NCBI GenBank assembly: GCA_001799395.1
Contig: MGTJ01000049.1
Coordinates: 1 to 55,077 of the forward strand
DNA: 55,077 nt
Direction of reading: 5' to 3'
Source of the DNA: Desulfobacterales bacterium RIFOXYA12_FULL_46_15
GTDB lineage: Bacteria; Desulfobacterota; Desulfobacteria; Desulfobacterales; Desulfobacteraceae
The notes under the pieces were generated by a model, which was not told where the DNA came from, did no database searches, and was given only the letters and a program-made list of their open reading frames with translations. A program made the translations under genes and the position numbers. This document shows, piece after piece, positions 24,015-46,614 of this stretch; positions within the stretch are counted from its first letter, which is position 1; each line of letters opens with the position of its first letter.

Positions 24015-25412
24015 ATGAAAAAGAAGACAAATTCGAATAAACAATATGTGCTGCTCCTATTCACTTTATTTGTGACGGTTTTTTTATTCTATTCAAAAGC
24101 CCCGGCAGAAGATCAGATCCGGCCATCTGCTATTATCAAGCTACCGGAAGATGAAAATGCAATTTTAGTTGACAAGAAAAATCAGACTCTTTTTCTTGTC
24201 CGCTCTAAAGCAGGAGAACTGATGGTGAGGTATAAAATGCCCTGTTCCACCGGAGAAATGGCTGGAGTGAAACAGAAAGCCGGGGACAAGAAAACCCCTG
24301 AGGGTATATATTTTTTAAAGGATGAGTATGAAGATCAATATCTGTCACCAGTATATGGGGTTAAGGCATTTCCTTTGGATTATCCTAACCTGATGGATAA
24401 GCGAACAGGCAAAGATGGTTCAGCCATCTGGATACACGGCACCAATAAAGTTTTGAAACCTATGGATTCAAACGGGTGTGTGGCTTTGGAAAATTCAAGT
24501 ATTCTAAAATTGGCTGAATATATAACTCTTGACTCAACTCCGGTCATTCTGATTGAAAAATTCAATAGAATAGATAAGGAAACGGTTGTCAAGCAGGAAC
24601 AGGAAATCAATCACTTGCTGGATCAATGGCTCAAAGCAGTTGAAAGCGGGAGCTATCATGAGTATCTGTCCTTTTATTCGGATGAATACCTTCCGGAAAT
24701 TGATTGGTGGACAAAATGGATGGAGATACGGAAAAATTCATCCGGGCCAGACTCAGGCTTTAAAATAGAAAGAGACAGGACAGGGATTTATTATCATGAT
24801 CAAGTTTTTGTTGCATTGTTTGATTATTCAGCAACACTAAATAATGAAAAATTATTATTAGGGAAAAGAAAACTGTTCCTTGAAAAAAAAGATCAGGTCT
24901 ATAAAATTATTGGAGAGGCATATCAAACTGTCTCAAAGGAATTTATGACTGGTCAAACGCCTTTGCTTGCAGCAGCATTAAAGGTTATGAAGTCTGCCTC
25001 AAAACAGGAACCGGTTGTGGAAACAAAACCGATTATCACAGCTAAACCATCCCTTGAAACAAAACCGGTTCAAGAGACAAAGTCTATTCAGGATATCGTC
25101 AACCAATGGCTGGCAGCATGGTCTACAAAAGATATGGACAAGTATGCTTCGTTTTATGCAAACAATTTTTATTCTGATGGAATGAATAAAAAAAAATGGG
25201 TTGAACGGAAAAAAAATATTGCCGGGAGAAATAATATTATCAAGGTTTCAGGTAAAAAATTTCAGATTAGGCAGACCAACGATACATGCGAGGTTACATT
25301 TTTTCAGGACTATCAATCCAGCGGATTAACAACCCAGGGTACAAAAAAGCTAAATCTTACAAACAAAGGCGGATCATGGAAGATATATCAAGAGAGCTGG
25401 AAAGAGAAATAG
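24015..25412 (+). CDS. YkuD-fold L,D-transpeptidase/carboxypeptidase with two NTF2-like domains (Csd6/Pgp2-like)
   Basis: 465 residues: a signal peptide (about 1-32), a YkuD domain (about 44-180), then two NTF2-like modules (about 195-300 and 350-465), each with a Q..NQWL.AW...D...Y..FY-type start. The YkuD active site is His141-Gly142 and Cys155 in SNGCVAL; the usual basic or Asn residue after the cysteine motif is replaced by Ala. YkuD plus NTF2-like is the architecture of Helicobacter Csd6 and Campylobacter Pgp2, which trim peptidoglycan tetrapeptides to control helical shape. The neighbours (M99 peptidase, bactofilin) fit this reading. A transpeptidase role remains possible. The second NTF2 copy is unusual. 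Confidence 0.78.
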   Translation: MKKKTNSNKQYVLLLFTLFVTVFLFYSKAPAEDQIRPSAIIKLPEDENAILVDKKNQTLFLVRSKAGELMVRYKMPCSTGEMAGVKQKAGDKKTPEGIYFLKDEYEDQYLSPVYGVKAFPLDYPNLMDKRTGKDGSAIWIHGTNKVLKPMDSNGCVALENSSILKLAEYITLDSTPVILIEKFNRIDKETVVKQEQEINHLLDQWLKAVESGSYHEYLSFYSDEYLPEIDWWTKWMEIRKNSSGPDSGFKIERDRTGIYYHDQVFVALFDYSATLNNEKLLLGKRKLFLEKKDQVYKIIGEAYQTVSKEFMTGQTPLLAAALKVMKSASKQEPVVETKPIITAKPSLETKPVQETKSIQDIVNQWLAAWSTKDMDKYASFYANNFYSDGMNKKKWVERKKNIAGRNNIIKVSGKKFQIRQTNDTCEVTFFQDYQSSGLTTQGTKKLNLTNKGGSWKIYQESWKEK

Positions 25413-26326
25413 CCAAATCTAAGCCCAAACCCTTCAGGAAAAATCGAAAAATAAAAATTCTCATCGTGGATGATTTTGGAAAAGTAATATCCGGCAATTA
25501 TATAAAAATAATATTATTAGTCCTATCCTTTATCAGTATCATAACCTTTTTAATTTCAACCTGGCTTTTTTACCACTATTCCGTTTTATCACAAGAGACC
25601 GGCTCCACAAAAAAACGTCTTCTCCTTGCTGAAAAAAAGATCAATGAATTGACAGATGAAAAAGAAGTATTGATGGCAAGATTAGTGATCCTTGGAAAAG
25701 ATCCGGGGATTAATAAAATAGTGGAAAAATCGGAAAGACCCTTAAATAATGATCTTGAGGGAAAAAAAATGATTTCTATCAAGCTGCAGGATATAAAATC
25801 CACGGCTTTGGATACTCCGGATATTCTTGATGAAGAGAAACAAAGTATTTCTCAAGGGATTGAAAAAGAAAAGACAACCGGGGATCATCCCGGTACCGGG
25901 TTAACTTCCCCAGGTGAAACGGAAACCAGGAACATAGCAGAAACCAATACTGTAAAAAAAACGATATCGATAGAGAAATTTTCCGTCATAAGAAACAAGA
26001 CAGGTAAAGACCTGCTGGTGCGATTTGATATCAGAAATGTTTCCAAGGATCAGGGAGATGTATCCGGAAGGATATTTACAATTTTAAGGCCTGATAATGA
26101 CATCGAAGATCAATGGCTCATTATACCGGCAGTTAGGTTGAAAAATGGAGTCCCTGGGGAGAGTCAGAAAGGCCAGTATTTTTCTATTTCCCACTTTAAA
26201 CCGGTGAAATTTCGAATAAAAAGTGAAGTTGATCCTGATTTTTATAAAAAGGCCTCTATTTTTATTTTTAACAGCGAGGGAATGCTGATTTTTGAGAAAT
26301 CCATCGAAATAAAAGATGCTGAATAG
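25376..26326 (+). CDS. Uncharacterised single-TM protein of the cell-shape cluster
   Basis: 316 residues. A short basic cytoplasmic N-terminus (about 1-42, with PKPFRKNRKIKI) is followed by one TM (about 43-67), a Lys/Glu-rich coiled coil (about 75-115), a low-complexity stretch and a beta-rich C-terminal domain (about 195-314) that should be periplasmic. I do not recognise the family. The topology resembles that of Csd5 in Helicobacter, which links bactofilin CcmA to the wall, but no sequence similarity is claimed. I chose ATG 25376 (after AAAGGCGGA); it overlaps the upstream gene by 37 nt. A longer in-frame extension to 25286 lies wholly in that gene. Confidence 0.65.
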   Translation: MEDISRELEREIAKSKPKPFRKNRKIKILIVDDFGKVISGNYIKIILLVLSFISIITFLISTWLFYHYSVLSQETGSTKKRLLLAEKKINELTDEKEVLMARLVILGKDPGINKIVEKSERPLNNDLEGKKMISIKLQDIKSTALDTPDILDEEKQSISQGIEKEKTTGDHPGTGLTSPGETETRNIAETNTVKKTISIEKFSVIRNKTGKDLLVRFDIRNVSKDQGDVSGRIFTILRPDNDIEDQWLIIPAVRLKNGVPGESQKGQYFSISHFKPVKFRIKSEVDPDFYKKASIFIFNSEGMLIFEKSIEIKDAE

Positions 26327-27823
26327 ATGCCCATGGAAAACGCTTTGATAATAAAGAAATTCATTACGATTCTGTTTTTCTGGTTATTTTTATTATGTAG
26401 CCAGACATCGGCCGGGCAAAAGACACATACGGTTTTTTTTGAGGGGGAAGAAAACGAACTCCATGTTTATCGGATCAAGGGTGGTCAGCCTGGAAAAACG
26501 CTACTCATCATCGGTGGAATTCAGGGCGATGAACCGGGAGGATATCTTGCCGCAGATTTCTATGCTGATTTCCTGCTTGAAAAAGGGAACCTGATTGTTG
26601 TCCCAAGGGCTAATTTCCCATCTATTTTGAAAATGGAAAGACAGATTAATCAGGATATGAATCGGAAATTTCTGGATGATGAGATTTCCAATTATGAAAC
26701 AAAGGTTGTTGGTGTCCTGAAAAAATTGATCTGCGAGAGCGATTGTTTCTTAAATCTTCATGAGGGCTCAGGTTTCTATTCTCATAATTGGGAGAATGAG
26801 GAAAAAAATCCTGGAAAATTTGGCCAGTCAATTATAATTGATGATTCGGCTCTGCAAAGAACAGGTTCTGGAGGTCTTATCAATCTTGAAGAAATAGCGG
26901 GGCTGGTTGTTGATAAGATCAATACTTATATTGACAATAAAAATCATTTTTTCCATGTTAACAACCACAGGACAAATCACGCAGACTCAATTCATAAAGA
27001 ACAGCTCAGATCGGCAACCTATTATGCCTATAACACCTGCAAGATTCCGGCTTTTGGAATAGAATCCGCCAAAATACTTCCGCTGGAACAAAAAGTCAAA
27101 CAGCATATTCATGCCATCAATGGATTCATGGAAGTTATGGATATTGTCCCAAAAAATCCGAATATTGATCTGAAAAAGCCGGAAATGCAATATATGATAA
27201 TATCCGTAAACGATTCGACTCCGGTTGTTATTGAAAAAATGCAGCGTCTAAAGATTAATAAAGGAGATACAATTAAAGTCCATGATATTATAGCAAACTA
27301 CGAACGAGGGCTCAGTGTGGATGTAATCGGGCTTGGAAATAAATTTAATGATATGAAAAATGAACTGATTGTCAATGTATCAACCCGGATTGAAGTCAAG
27401 AAAGATTTTTATAAATGCGGAAGCGTTTTTATTGATATCGATTCTCAAGGCTCAACCGAGTCAAAAAAGTTTGTAGTCACAGAAACCGGGGAAGTCAGTA
27501 TTTTAAAATATAAATTTAAAATCAATGACAAGCCGTTACTTGTCGATAACCAAAGCCATGTTAAGGTGCGCATGGGGGACCGGTTAATGATTGAAGACAT
27601 TGTCTCAGGCGCTGTTGATCCTTCTAAATATATTGTTAATTTTAAAGGATTTATCGGTAATTCGGATAATAATACGGGTGAAGACAGGGGGTATGTGATT
27701 CATATATCCGAAGGGTCACTGATGAAGCGTTACTCTGTTCAAAACAAGGGAGAATGCTACCACGTGGTAACAACATTGGATGGAAAAGAAATGGGGAAAA
27801 TTTTTATTGATATCCAGCCATAG
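26327..27823 (+). CDS. M99-family peptidoglycan carboxypeptidase (Csd4/Pgp1-like)
   Basis: A 498-residue exported protein (signal sequence about 1-30). The zinc site reads Gln66-x-x-Glu69 in GGIQGDEPGG and His145 in FLNLHEGSG; a late Glu247 in PAFGIESAK is the probable general base. The Gln/Glu/His ligand set, in place of the His/Glu/His of ordinary M14 enzymes, is characteristic of Csd4, the Helicobacter D,L-carboxypeptidase that cleaves mDAP from muramyl tripeptides. The C-terminal 200 residues form beta domains as in M99 proteins. It follows the TM protein directly (stop and start abut); bactofilin starts 19 nt after it. Confidence 0.82.
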   Translation: MPMENALIIKKFITILFFWLFLLCSQTSAGQKTHTVFFEGEENELHVYRIKGGQPGKTLLIIGGIQGDEPGGYLAADFYADFLLEKGNLIVVPRANFPSILKMERQINQDMNRKFLDDEISNYETKVVGVLKKLICESDCFLNLHEGSGFYSHNWENEEKNPGKFGQSIIIDDSALQRTGSGGLINLEEIAGLVVDKINTYIDNKNHFFHVNNHRTNHADSIHKEQLRSATYYAYNTCKIPAFGIESAKILPLEQKVKQHIHAINGFMEVMDIVPKNPNIDLKKPEMQYMIISVNDSTPVVIEKMQRLKINKGDTIKVHDIIANYERGLSVDVIGLGNKFNDMKNELIVNVSTRIEVKKDFYKCGSVFIDIDSQGSTESKKFVVTETGEVSILKYKFKINDKPLLVDNQSHVKVRMGDRLMIEDIVSGAVDPSKYIVNFKGFIGNSDNNTGEDRGYVIHISEGSLMKRYSVQNKGECYHVVTTLDGKEMGKIFIDIQP

Positions 27824-27842
27824 GCTATCGAGGAGATTTAAA

Positions 27843-28253
27843 GTGGGAATAAAAAACAGCAAGAATCTTTCAATCATTGATAAAGAGCTGAAAATTGAGG
27901 GTTCAATATCAAGCAGTGGAAAATTGATTATCAAGGGCCAGGTCACAGGAACAATTGAAGGGGATGTGGTGATTATTGCCGAAGACGGGCAGGTGAATTC
28001 CAGTTCAACAAGAGTATCAAGTATTACCATTGGGGGAAATTTTAAAGGTGAGCTGATTGCTTCAAAAGAATTAATTATTCTTTCGACCGGAACATGTGCA
28101 GGAAAAGTGGAGTGTAAAGATCTGATTGTTGAGAACGGCGGTATTTTAAATGCTGAGGTGACCTGTAAAACCACCAGCAAGATTTCTACGGACCTGGAGT
28201 CGAAACATTTTGAACCTCTTGTCATAAGAGATAAGAAACAAATAGAAATTTAA
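27843..28253 (+). CDS. Bactofilin (CcmA-like)
   Basis: A 136-residue bactofilin. The core (about residues 15-115) is a right-handed beta-helix with the spaced pattern I.GSISSSGKLIIKGQVTGTIEGDVVI ... ITIGGNFKGELIAS, flanked by short disordered tails. Bactofilins polymerise without nucleotide and scaffold wall enzymes; CcmA in Helicobacter acts with Csd proteins. I chose GTG 27843, preceded by GAGGAG (27829-27834), since the longer frame from 27780 lies inside the M99 gene. It ends the cluster. Confidence 0.9.
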   Translation: MGIKNSKNLSIIDKELKIEGSISSSGKLIIKGQVTGTIEGDVVIIAEDGQVNSSSTRVSSITIGGNFKGELIASKELIILSTGTCAGKVECKDLIVENGGILNAEVTCKTTSKISTDLESKHFEPLVIRDKKQIEI

Positions 28254-43595: not shown

Positions 43596-44093
43596 ATGAA
43601 AAGAAATCTGATGATGTGGGTGCTGTTCGCAGTTGTTTTCTTTCTGACAGGGTGTGCCGGGGGGTATCTGTCCGGCTCAAACTCTGCCGGTCCGTCCGGA
43701 AGTGTTCTCGGGCTAGCCGAGAAAGATGGAGGGGCAAATCAGACAGTGACGTTTGAAGTTACAGGAAAGGGTCTTGAACCGGAAACATCGATAACAAAAG
43801 GTGAAGCCATCATAATGGCTGAAAGAGCTGCAATAATGGATGGCTACCGGCAGTTTGCAGAAAAAATCCATGGTGTGTATGTCGATGCCTATATGAAATC
43901 CGGTTACGGAACAATCAATCATGACATGATTAAAACCAATACCCAATCATGGCTCAGAGGAGTTGAATTAGTTGAAATCAGACATGGAAATCACGGTATA
44001 ACCGAAGCAATTATGCATTTGAGAATCAATTTTACCAAGCAGGGAATGGTTTGGTGGCCAAGCGGTTTAGGATCGAATATAGCACCCATGTGA
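43596..44093 (+). CDS. LPP20/FlgP-like lipoprotein, copy 1
   Basis: 165 residues. Signal sequence ending in the lipobox FLTGC (Cys20). A Ser/Gly-rich linker precedes an LPP20-type domain (about 50-160) with IIMAERAAIMDGYRQFAEKI, GVYVDAYMKSGYG and TQSWLRGVE. Related lipoproteins (FlgP) build outer-membrane-proximal basal disks on flagellar motors in Vibrio and Campylobacter. About 60% of the domain matches copy 2 at 45221 by eye. AGAGGAAAC precedes the ATG. Confidence 0.8.
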   Translation: MKRNLMMWVLFAVVFFLTGCAGGYLSGSNSAGPSGSVLGLAEKDGGANQTVTFEVTGKGLEPETSITKGEAIIMAERAAIMDGYRQFAEKIHGVYVDAYMKSGYGTINHDMIKTNTQSWLRGVELVEIRHGNHGITEAIMHLRINFTKQGMVWWPSGLGSNIAPM

Positions 44094-44132
44094 CCCTCTA
44101 ATCCATATTTTATATGAAAGAATTGAGAAATC

Positions 44133-44978
44133 ATGTATTTTTGTCTTAACAGGTCGGCAATCGTTTTTTATGCATCTTTGTTTATGGCGCTTACCTTTTT
44201 CATCTTAATGAAAAGCGGTGCTGCCTCTGCAGCAGACAGGGGGTATCAGGATGTATATTCCATGGAACCAAAATCTGATTCCAATAAGGCAAAAATTGAA
44301 TTTATTCAATCGGAAATTGACAAGATCAGTCAAGATTTTGACTGGTTGTCTTCCCGTGTCAAGAAAATGGAGCTGTTTAAGCAGTTTATCCCGGACAGAA
44401 TGTATCAAAGCCTTGCGTTTAAACAGAATAAAATTAAAATTCTGAAAAAACTCAAAGCACAACTGGAGGCGGTATCAAAAAAAGATAAAAAAACAAAACC
44501 GGTCAAGAAAACCTCACCTCTTTCGAAAAAAGCAGTTGGGACTCCTTCAGGAGAGAAGAGGATCGCGGAACAAATAAAAAAATACGGGCTGGTTGACTGG
44601 CTGGAGTTGATAAAAGACAAGGATGGTGCAAGGATCGAGAATCGATTGCCGATATTGTTTGGTTCCGGAAGCGCTGAAATTGCAGAAGAATATAAAATAT
44701 TTCTGAAGAATGTGGCCATGGTTCTAAAAGAAAGCAAAGTATCGATTCAGGTTGATGGATACGCAGATACAGATCCCATTCATACTGCAAAATATCCATC
44801 AAATTCTGAATTAAGTACTGCAAGAGCTTTAAGTGTTTCCCGGGAGCTGATTAAAAACGGCATAGGCCCTGATGTTTTTAAAACAGGAGCAGCCCGGCGA
44901 CGCGGATCTGTTGAACACAAGGCATCTAAGTGGAAAGCCCTTGATAGACATGCGAATCTGACTGTTTTTTTAGAGTAA
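44133..44978 (+). CDS. Periplasmic OmpA/MotB-C-like protein, copy 1
   Basis: 281 residues. N-terminal signal sequence (cleavage near AASA, about 34), a helical/coiled-coil hairpin (about 48-120), a Lys-rich linker, and an OmpA-like domain (about 150-281) with QVDGYADTDPIHTAKYPSNSEL then STARALSV, very close to the MotB peptidoglycan-binding motif. There is no stator Asp TM, so it is not a stator. It follows the LPP20 lipoprotein by 39 nt and is repeated at 45760. Confidence 0.78.
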   Translation: MYFCLNRSAIVFYASLFMALTFFILMKSGAASAADRGYQDVYSMEPKSDSNKAKIEFIQSEIDKISQDFDWLSSRVKKMELFKQFIPDRMYQSLAFKQNKIKILKKLKAQLEAVSKKDKKTKPVKKTSPLSKKAVGTPSGEKRIAEQIKKYGLVDWLELIKDKDGARIENRLPILFGSGSAEIAEEYKIFLKNVAMVLKESKVSIQVDGYADTDPIHTAKYPSNSELSTARALSVSRELIKNGIGPDVFKTGAARRRGSVEHKASKWKALDRHANLTVFLE

Positions 44979-45220
44979 AACTTTTGACGGATTATTTCAT
45001 GCAACGCCTATTCGTAGAACAGGCTGAGGCTTTCATCAAGATCACCTGAAAACCTATCCAAAGGTATTTGAAATTTTAAAAATACATGGCCAAATACCCG
45101 TTTTTCCTATTCCATTTTTTTTAATTTAAGTTAGTATGGTTTCATGACGATCTCTTTAATTTAATGGCTGTCTGGATTTTGAAAAAAAATTTACGACATG
45201 ATTTAGATGAGGGCTATGAA
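44979..45220. other. Intergenic region between cassette copies
   Basis: No convincing gene, promoter or terminator seen. It is AT-rich with a short possible hairpin (GCCT/AGGC around 45006-45024). An in-frame extension of the next gene back to 45164 lacks a ribosome site. Confidence 0.4.
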
Positions 45221-45694
45221 ATGAAACTTTTTTTATTTTTCTGGGTCGGGGTGATTTCAGTTTTTTCACTGGCTGGTTGTGCCGGGAACCATTATCCTTC
45301 CGGGAACGTCCTTGGCAACTCAATCTCAACATCAGAGATGTACAGGGTTGTTATATTTAATGTTGTCGGTAAGGGAGTCGAACCGGAATTGTCCTTATCC
45401 AAAGGACAGGCTGTGTTGATGGCTGAAAGGGCAGCCGTTGCAGACGGATACAGGCAGTTTGTGGAAAAGATCAGAGGTGTTTACGTTGATGCCTATATGA
45501 AAGCCGGTTATGGTGCGGTTAACTGGGATGCCCTTAATACAAGCACTCAGTCATGGCTGCGGGGTGTTGAAATCATCGAGGTAAGGCAGGGACCTTTTGG
45601 CATTGTTGAAGCACATATGCAGCTTAAGGTGAATTTTGTTAACAACAATATGATCTGGTGGCCCTTTGGAACGGACAATATCCCCAAATCCTGA
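45221..45694 (+). CDS. LPP20/FlgP-like lipoprotein, copy 2
   Basis: 157 residues, lipobox SLAGC (Cys20), then the same domain as copy 1: VLMAERAAVADGYRQFVEKI, GVYVDAYMKAGYG, TQSWLRGVE and a shared WWP near the C-terminus. I chose ATG 45221 (GAGGG about 7 nt upstream) because it starts directly with the signal peptide; the in-frame ATG 45164 would add 19 charged residues before it. The pair evidently arose by tandem duplication of a lipoprotein-OmpA unit. Confidence 0.8.
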   Translation: MKLFLFFWVGVISVFSLAGCAGNHYPSGNVLGNSISTSEMYRVVIFNVVGKGVEPELSLSKGQAVLMAERAAVADGYRQFVEKIRGVYVDAYMKAGYGAVNWDALNTSTQSWLRGVEIIEVRQGPFGIVEAHMQLKVNFVNNNMIWWPFGTDNIPKS

Positions 45695-45741
45695 TAGCAG
45701 TATGATATCATTCATAATTTAAGCATCTTTGGTATGAAATG

Positions 45742-45757
45742 AAAAAAAGGGGGGGGG
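45742..45757 (+). repeat. A7G9 homopolymer at the start of the second OmpA-like gene
   Basis: Seven A then nine G lie directly after an ATG (45739) and 2 nt before another in-frame ATG (45760). Tract-length change would shift the frame from the first start and alter the ribosome-binding purine run for the second. This is the layout of a phase-variable locus. Confidence 0.6.
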
Positions 45758-45759
45758 CT

Positions 45760-46614
45760 ATGCACATTAAAAATAATTCATACATTAATCCATTGTTTTT
45801 TCTGATCGTATTTCTCTTCGGGTCATTCATTTATCCTGAGCCTGCCAGGGCTGTTCCTGATAAAAGCGACGGATCCGGCACCTATAGCCAGAAAATAATA
45901 GATGATTATCAGCACAGAGTGATTTCAACCGAAGGGGAGATTCGCGAGTTAAAAGAGAATCTGGCATGGCTGGACCTGAAGATCAAGGGGATAATCTATT
46001 CAAACCGTCCGGTTCCGCAATCAATTTATAATTCGGTACAACATAAGACAGAGAGACTAAATGCCCTGGAAAAAGAGAGGGCATATTGTATCAACCGGTT
46101 ATCCGGGTTCCTGAAACCGGAGGAACCCGCCATTACACAGAGTCAAATATCCGGGCAGGATACGGATGATCATGATTTTGTAAAAAAACTTCAATCCAGG
46201 ATTGAAAATGCACATCTTTCAGACTGGATAGCCATCGAGCATGATAAAGACGGTCGCTCATACAGGTTAAAAACAATCCTTCCTATTTTATTTTCTTCAG
46301 GAAGTGCATTGCTTTTCAAAGAGTATGATGATTTTTTAAGAAATTTTGCCCTGGTGATAAAAGACCTTGATGCTCAAATAGTAGTGGATGGGTACGCGGA
46401 TATTAATCCGATTCATACCAAGCAATACCCCTCCAATTTCGAACTCGGCGCCACACGGGCAGCCAATGTGGTTCATTCCCTGGTCAGACACGGAGTTAAG
46501 CCATCCATATTTAAAATTGCTTCCACAGGAAAATACCGATTCTTTCCCCTTAAGATGTCTGCAAATAAAACCCTGGAGAGATATGTCAATATAACTGTGT
46601 TTATCTCCGGATAA
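45760..46614 (+). CDS. Periplasmic OmpA/MotB-C-like protein, copy 2
   Basis: 284 residues from ATG 45760, or 291 from ATG 45739. Signal peptide (cleavage near PARA), helical hairpin (about 45-115) matching copy 1 (WL..K.K ... P..IY.S), and an OmpA-like domain with VVDGYADINPIHTKQYPSNFEL then GATRAANV. I favour ATG 45760, since the poly-purine run would act as its ribosome site, but either start is possible. Divergence from copy 1 is high outside the motifs. Confidence 0.75.
   Translation: MHIKNNSYINPLFFLIVFLFGSFIYPEPARAVPDKSDGSGTYSQKIIDDYQHRVISTEGEIRELKENLAWLDLKIKGIIYSNRPVPQSIYNSVQHKTERLNALEKERAYCINRLSGFLKPEEPAITQSQISGQDTDDHDFVKKLQSRIENAHLSDWIAIEHDKDGRSYRLKTILPILFSSGSALLFKEYDDFLRNFALVIKDLDAQIVVDGYADINPIHTKQYPSNFELGATRAANVVHSLVRHGVKPSIFKIASTGKYRFFPLKMSANKTLERYVNITVFISG

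Follow-up and report, generated by a model that had tools for sequence, protein, structure and literature searches.

Bactofilins polymerise on the inner membrane face. The way in which such a cytoplasmic filament steers wall enzymes across the membrane is incompletely understood, and the best-studied cases pair a bactofilin with M23 endopeptidases: the cytoplasmic residues 1-38 of LmdC are described to bind the bactofilin BacA with a dissociation constant near 15 uM, and 226 species are reported to have adjoining bactofilin and M23 genes (PMC10945521). The Helicobacter protein Csd5 is described as bitopic, with an N-terminus that interacts with CcmA (PMC9448923). Among the enzymes that trim peptidoglycan, Bd1075, Pgp2 and Csd6 are presented as curvature or helix factors (PMC8938487, PMC8038945), as is Csd4 (PMC4220969). 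Bd1075 is reported to be the curvature determinant of Bdellovibrio, targeted to the outer curve by its NTF2 domain (PMC8938487), and the tripeptide made by Pgp2 is given as the substrate of Pgp1 (PMC8038945). Here we analyse four adjacent genes, A to D, in a stretch of 55,077 nucleotides (nt) of the sulfate-reducing Desulfobacterales bacterium RIFOXYA12_FULL_46_15, hereafter the window (contig MGTJ01000049.1, our C49, in an assembly of 4.74 Mb and 250 contigs). In one short modular unit they bring together trimming enzymes of the Helicobacter kind, a bactofilin and a protein that may physically connect them.

The best reading of the four genes, and in our view a rather probable one, is that they form a single transmembrane module for cell-wall trimming that is guided by the bactofilin. 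Their joint function is well supported by the fixed gene order, by co-retention and co-loss on a tree of relatives and by fusions between A and B, and they probably help to control cell shape. The undescribed membrane protein B probably links the two enzymes and the filament protein. A preliminary description of the window, made from the sequence, had already picked out the cluster, which is indeed real and compact: A and B overlap by 37 nt, the ATG of C (26327) lies immediately behind the stop codon of B, and D follows C after 19 nt. Since order and site are conserved in relatives, the cluster is more than a chance arrangement. The YkuD plus NTF2-like, Peptidase_M99 and bactofilin identities that had been read from motifs were all recovered by Pfam profiles, with the scores given below for each gene.

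Gene A combines YkuD (75 bits; cut-off 23.4) with the NTF2-like Cds6_C (69.6 bits, in two stretches) and is the sole Cds6_C match in the genome. Its catalytic H142 and C156 are invariant in all 18 aligned relatives. The AlphaFold model (predicted local distance difference test, pLDDT, 86.1) contains a YkuD and two NTF2-like domains, and the six best chains retrieved with it by Foldseek all belong to Bd1075, Pgp2 or Csd6. A profile search of the PDB ranked Bd1075 (7o21, E 2.1e-75) before Pgp2 (6xj7, E 1.3e-34) and Csd6 (4xzz, E 4.9e-32). On the basis of the YkuD His/Cys pair and the Cds6_C-type domain, gene A is a member of the Csd6/Pgp2/Bd1075 LD-carboxypeptidases, with an activity that is predicted. 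The earlier label Csd6/Pgp2-like named the right family, although Bdellovibrio Bd1075 is closer than either. An N-terminal hydrophobic stretch, seen by eye, suggests that the protein is secreted. Two relatives have a gene A that is broken into two reading frames (L046 6171-7469 and L044 9974-11397), through assembly error or decay.

Gene C is a Peptidase_M99 (129.9 bits; cut-off 27). The only other family up to an E-value of 1 was AstE_AspA (34.3 bits) and M14 gave no match, which rules out an ordinary M14 or AstE identity. The Gln/Glu/His set that had been noticed in the sequence is borne out: Q66, E69 and H145, which we take to correspond to the zinc ligands of Csd4, are invariant in 18 of 18 aligned relatives, and the QGDE and H motifs align with those of Csd4 in the PDB match (4q6m, E 1.9e-49). 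C is the sole M99 of its genome. Of the 86 family genomes, 42 contain an M99. Two score classes, assigned per genome by hand from the bits, can be told apart, one of 128-159 bits (the window type, fragments in G033 aside) and one of 217-316 bits (Csd4-proper); nine genomes hold both kinds. Across the phylum, M99 is present in 73 of 395 genomes, with a lower-scoring class of 80-162 bits over the 53 loci examined, and the Csd4-proper class spans 205-316 bits in family and phylum together. None of A, B or D was found near a Csd4-proper M99 at 20 examined loci (11 of 17 in the phylum, nine of 17 in the family). Gene C belongs to the lower-scoring class, apart from the Csd4-proper genes, which lie elsewhere; it is Csd4/Pgp1-like in family and residue set and differs from Csd4-proper in score class and gene context. 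Many of the Csd4-proper genes without nearby A, B or bactofilin (L291-L301, L063-L071) come from one family code, f50.

Gene D encodes the only bactofilin of the genome (70.1 bits; cut-off 27.9). No M23 gene lies beside it in the window, and all five M23 matches of the genome are on contigs other than C49. Elsewhere in the phylum, in family code f49, an M23 gene does adjoin D (L224, L230 and L258), and in L224 and L230 it stands between C and D; C was not found in L258. The clusters of L224 and L230 unite both kinds of bactofilin partner, M99 and M23.

Gene B looks like the hub of the module. Searches of Pfam and NCBIfam returned no family above cut-off, the PDB no sequence relative, and Foldseek only generic folds like those of immunoglobulin (Ig) or FnIII domains (best E 5.6e-4), so that membership of a known family was rejected and B apparently represents a new one. 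The AlphaFold model (pLDDT 71.8; predicted template modelling score 0.39) consists of a short helix with a hairpin, one long helix that comprises the transmembrane (TM) segment and a coil, a disordered linker and an Ig-like beta sandwich at the C-terminus; a single TM segment is seen both by eye and in the model. Mean conservation is highest in the head (0.72), followed by the Ig domain (0.66), and lowest in the linker (0.26). The head is kept in several genomes without A, and its first 12 residues differ in L074, L075 and L082.

The two halves of B occur in different company. In G041, G042 and G053, which have a short A and no M99, B is shortened to 113-132 amino acids (aa; head, TM and coil) beside D. 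In family code f45 (L315-L317) the place just upstream of a bactofilin is taken by a 100-101 aa protein that weakly resembles the N half (E 2e-5 to 4e-4 in a set of 14,455 open reading frame entries). In family codes f61 and f27 (L227, L234, L241) a single open reading frame encodes both A and the Ig domain of B, with D upstream and C downstream. The N half thus tends to accompany bactofilin and the C half the LD-carboxypeptidase, since N-half forms stand beside bactofilin and the Ig half is found fused to A. In the N-half search, leaving aside B-position proteins and two M23 proteins with E 0.012 and 0.051, further matches began at E 0.28. When the N-termini of eight M23 proteins were compared with the N-half profile, to see whether B has a head of the LmdC type, two matched weakly (E about 0.02), one of which had been fetched because it already matched; three M23 proteins that adjoin a bactofilin did not match. 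Two arrangements may be recorded here: L234 (6989-9354) carries both the A-B(Ig) fusion and a separate B, the latter between the fusion and M99, and the f45 loci (L315 1026-2957, L316, L317) combine the small one-TM protein, the bactofilin and a one-TM protein that by eye resembles lytic transglycosylases, possibly a further bactofilin cluster.

A survey of the neighbourhood showed that the cluster is conserved in relatives. Within the family, the order A-B-C-D between ruvB and rplM was found at all 31 fetched loci with a window-type M99, as far as the contigs reach; in L046, C and D are 1.3 kb apart. The overlap of A and B is exactly 37 nt in 32 of the 33 family pairs that have a full-length A in one open reading frame. 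The 33rd pair is that of the window, which the script, taking the longest open reading frame, scored as 127 and which also gives 37 when counted from the ATG of B at 25376. Family genomes without a window-type M99 show graded states at the same site, namely A-B-D, a short A with B-D, B-D only, a short A only, or nothing. This piecewise loss in close relatives provides natural knock-outs for tests of shape.

Co-retention was scored over 72 loci (the window, the 31 window-type loci and 40 other sites) from the 86 family genomes, 14 of which fall outside the set. The 59 loci that span ruvB to rplM were used and the remaining 13 left out; G033 and G049, with M99 at contig edges, are outside the wide-locus set, and G032, labelled Csd4-proper only yet with a window-type fragment at a contig edge, is outside the 59. 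B and D were both present at 47 sites, both absent at 12, and in no case was one found alone. A bactofilin was found nowhere in 11 of the 12 genomes that lack B and D at the site, and the twelfth (G073) has a weak match in a 589-residue frame. Among the 47 B genes, six are truncated, five to the N part (G041, G042, G053, G054, G016) and one to a C-terminal piece of 74 aa (G031). A is present at 45 sites, long (with the second NTF2-like domain kept) at 29 and short at 16, and is missing from 14. Every genome with a long A has an M99, linked in 24 cases and in five (G023-G026, G029) only as an unlinked Csd4-proper gene; M99 was found in none of the genomes with a short A or no A. Of the 29 long A genes, two (G034, G021) are broken into two frames. 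A tree was built from ruvA, ruvB, ruvC and rplM by a quick method, with 29 of 56 inner branches starred. On it, long A and M99 change 10 times each and in the same rows, and the six independent pairs that lie on supported branches are all concordant (sign test, p 0.031). The changes of B and D, three each, fall together. With B placed between C and the 3' end of A, one deletion cannot remove both the second NTF2-like domain and C and yet keep B.

The association extends beyond the family. The B profile matched 46 of the 395 phylum genomes. There were 56 lower-scoring M99 matches over the cut-off (two under it were dropped), of which 53 were examined and three left out (G436, G477, G165); G436 shows A-B-C. 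Within 3.5 kb on the same strand, the 53 loci have A in 46 cases, B in 42, both in 41, D in 16 and none of them in six, and the joint presence of A and B at 41 of 53 compares with 0 of 11 for the Csd4-proper loci of the phylum. A-B-D without C occurs in three of four fetched genomes of f26 g72, and B was found with none of A, C and D nearby at six of 40 loci fetched for B, in one of which (L226) B is at the contig edge. A bactofilin is present in all 46 genomes with B versus 199 of the 349 without (Fisher p 1e-10, uncorrected for kinship; the overlap of the two genome lists was compared by eye).

On these grounds the module might operate as follows. D would polymerise at the inner membrane face, and B, which would span the membrane once, would bind D by its conserved cytoplasmic head. 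The coiled coil, flexible linker and Ig-like domain of B would project into the periplasm, where they would hold A or set its position. A would take off the fourth residue of tetrapeptide stems, as known for its homologue Pgp2, and C would then shorten the resulting tripeptide by one more residue, to a dipeptide, as known for its homologue Pgp1. To judge by co-retention, the second NTF2-like domain of A may serve hand-over or docking and be needed when an M99 acts downstream. Trimming tied to a filament would, by analogy with Csd5/CcmA, LmdC/BacA and Bd1075, be confined to one zone of the wall and lead to a bend or another shape. A bolder version, which we rate as less likely than not, has B as the founder of a new transmembrane-bridge family, the N half binding bactofilin and the Ig half gathering LD- and DL-carboxypeptidases, and A-B-C-D as a phylum-wide modular curvature machine parallel to bactofilin-M23 in which the second NTF2-like domain of A hands stems to M99.

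Several observations weigh against the proposal of a bactofilin-guided trimming module. The binding of D by B and the enzymatic activities of A and C are predictions. D is adjacent at only 16 of the 53 phylum loci, and six of the 53 have none of A, B and D. B-D occurs without A or C and must therefore have a separate role. The rule that links the second NTF2-like domain to M99 is loose outside the family, as 12 of the 46 A proteins linked to an M99 show just a single NTF2 domain, and G018 (not fully spanned, in an assembly of 1180 contigs) has a long A with no M99 found. The covariation of B and D rests on three changes, too few for a test, and includes the six truncated B genes among the 47 counted as present, while the Fisher value takes no account of kinship. 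As many genomes are drafts, absences may be gaps. Finally, A stands alone at the site in Desulfamplus magnetovallimortis (G002), with B, C and bactofilin missing, and Desulfamplus cells are curved.

The strongest alternative, though a somewhat unlikely one, accepts the module and has it shape the wall otherwise than by curvature, e.g. in cell width, poles, septa or an appendage zone. Bactofilin modules are described to serve budding and stalks besides curvature (PMC10945521, PMC9448923), and the shapes of the carriers are to hand for very few species. Against it stands the fact that the nearest relatives with solved structures, Bd1075, Pgp2 and Csd6 for A and Csd4 for C, are all curvature or helix factors. 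Moreover, Desulfospira joergensenii DSM 10085 (G060), which has the full A-B-C-D set, is curved, and the oval species Desulfobacter latus (AcRS2, G013) and Desulfocicer vacuolatum (DSM 3385, G056) have B-D and none of the four genes at the site, respectively, in line with curvature. A search of the literature for a table of cell shapes found none, and the only printed shape was that of Desulfotignum phosphitoxidans, described as a rod (PMC4046663). Desulfotignum metagenome-assembled genomes (g8) with a short A only fit this rod shape; others of g8 carry the full set. Since shapes are available for too few species, we do not call the module a curvature determinant; a role in curvature is what we infer by analogy. 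Of the self-contained curvature module first pictured in the window, the joint function is well supported and the curvature stays conditional, whereas "self-contained" is too strong, as relatives keep B-D alone, A-B-D, or A alone.

It is less likely still that the genes form an operon for periplasmic wall maintenance (recycling or stress trimming), with the bactofilin a mere neighbour and neither filament-guided trimming nor curvature involved. A stands alone, without B, C and D, at 10 of the 59 family sites (genus codes g3 and g8), and 26 of the 53 phylum loci have A-B-C with no bactofilin adjacent, as such an operon would have it. However, a bactofilin lies elsewhere in 25 of these 26 genomes (22 of 23 in one search, three of three in another), just as every one of the 46 B-carrying genomes has one; at 59 of 59 sites B and D are either present together or absent together; B-D pairs without A or C occur in four fetched genomes of f30 (L236, L239, L248, L256); and N-half forms of B stand beside bactofilin. 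That the arrangement is an accident of the conserved tol-pal-ruv-rplM neighbourhood with slow gene loss is highly improbable: the site is ruvB-rplM at all spanned loci of family f1, so that the order could be passively inherited, but this is strongly opposed by the linkage counts, by the correlated losses over 10 changes on the tree and by the recurrence of A-B-C(-D), fused and split versions included, without ruvB or rplM alongside across many further family codes.

The features of the cluster are listed in Table 1. Gene A was read from the ATG at 24015, with TTG 24012 as an alternative start, and gene D most likely starts at its GTG, preceded by GAGGAG. Upstream of the cluster lie tolQRAB-pal-ybgF-ruvCAB and downstream rplM-rpsI; these names come from reading the translations of the window, and the order in relatives was checked by similarity. 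Elsewhere in the window, 43596-44978 and 45164-46614 are tandem, diverged copies of a two-gene unit that by eye encodes a small lipoprotein-like and an OmpA-like protein.

Table 1. Positions of genes A to D and of their predicted parts in the window.
Feature	Position	Strand	Basis
Gene A: predicted secreted LD-carboxypeptidase-like protein, YkuD + NTF2-like + NTF2-like (Csd6/Pgp2/Bd1075 family)	24015..25412	+	Pfam, PDB profile search, AlphaFold/Foldseek
YkuD active-site stretch HGT...DSNGC (His142, Cys156, numbered from TTG 24012)	24435..24479	+	both invariant, 18/18
Second NTF2-like domain of A	25068..25406	+	AlphaFold model elements 353-465; co-retention with M99
A/B overlap, 37 nt	25376..25412	+	starts read from sequence
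Gene B: bitopic, 316 aa, with cytoplasmic head, TM, coiled coil, disordered linker and periplasmic Ig-like domain (topology inferred)	25376..26326	+	model
Conserved head of B (helix + hairpin), proposed bactofilin-binding part	25376..25501	+	conservation
TM helix of B, boundaries approximate	25502..25573	+	hydrophobic segment seen by eye inside model helix 41-106
Ig-like beta domain of B, proposed enzyme dock	25952..26323	+	model residues 197-311; homologous domain fused to A elsewhere
Gene C: predicted secreted Peptidase_M99, DL-carboxypeptidase-like	26327..27823	+	Pfam, alignment, PDB match to Csd4
Gln66 + Glu69 of C (QGDE), presumed zinc ligands	26522..26533	+	invariant, 18/18
His145 of C, presumed zinc ligand	26759..26761	+	invariant, 18/18
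Gene D: bactofilin, 136 aa	27843..28253	+	Pfam; start inferred from GAGGAG upstream

An earlier description of the operon was not found in the open-access PMC literature, a scope that leaves subscription papers mostly and bioRxiv wholly outside the search. Compared with the described systems, gene A shares the YkuD and NTF2-like domains and the catalytic His/Cys with Csd6/Pgp2 and Bdellovibrio Bd1075, which are its top matches in sequence and fold. Unlike these, it has two NTF2-like domains instead of one and lies in an operon with B, C and D, overlapping B by 37 nt. Gene C has the catalytic domain and the Gln/Glu/His set of Csd4/Pgp1, whereas it scores lower and is gene-linked to A and B, the 20 examined Csd4-proper copies being unlinked. 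B may work like Csd5 of Helicobacter, on a comparison by description alone, as a predicted bitopic protein with a cytoplasmic N-terminus proposed to bind bactofilin and a putative periplasmic binding domain; its periplasmic domain, however, is modelled as a larger Ig-like sandwich and not as SH3. B is the part most worth testing, for binding. With the bactofilin-M23 modules (LmdC-BacA of Hyphomonas and Rhodospirillum, csd1/csd2-ccmA of Helicobacter) the locus has in common a bactofilin packed together with a gene for a peptidoglycan hydrolase, and a one-TM protein that has a coiled coil and a short head in the cytoplasm. It differs in that head and enzymes are separate proteins and that the enzymes are LD- and DL-carboxypeptidase-like. 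We therefore read A-B-C-D as a variant of the bactofilin-M23 modules, in which B would act as a transmembrane bridge that ties two sequential peptidoglycan carboxypeptidases to the only bactofilin of the genome.

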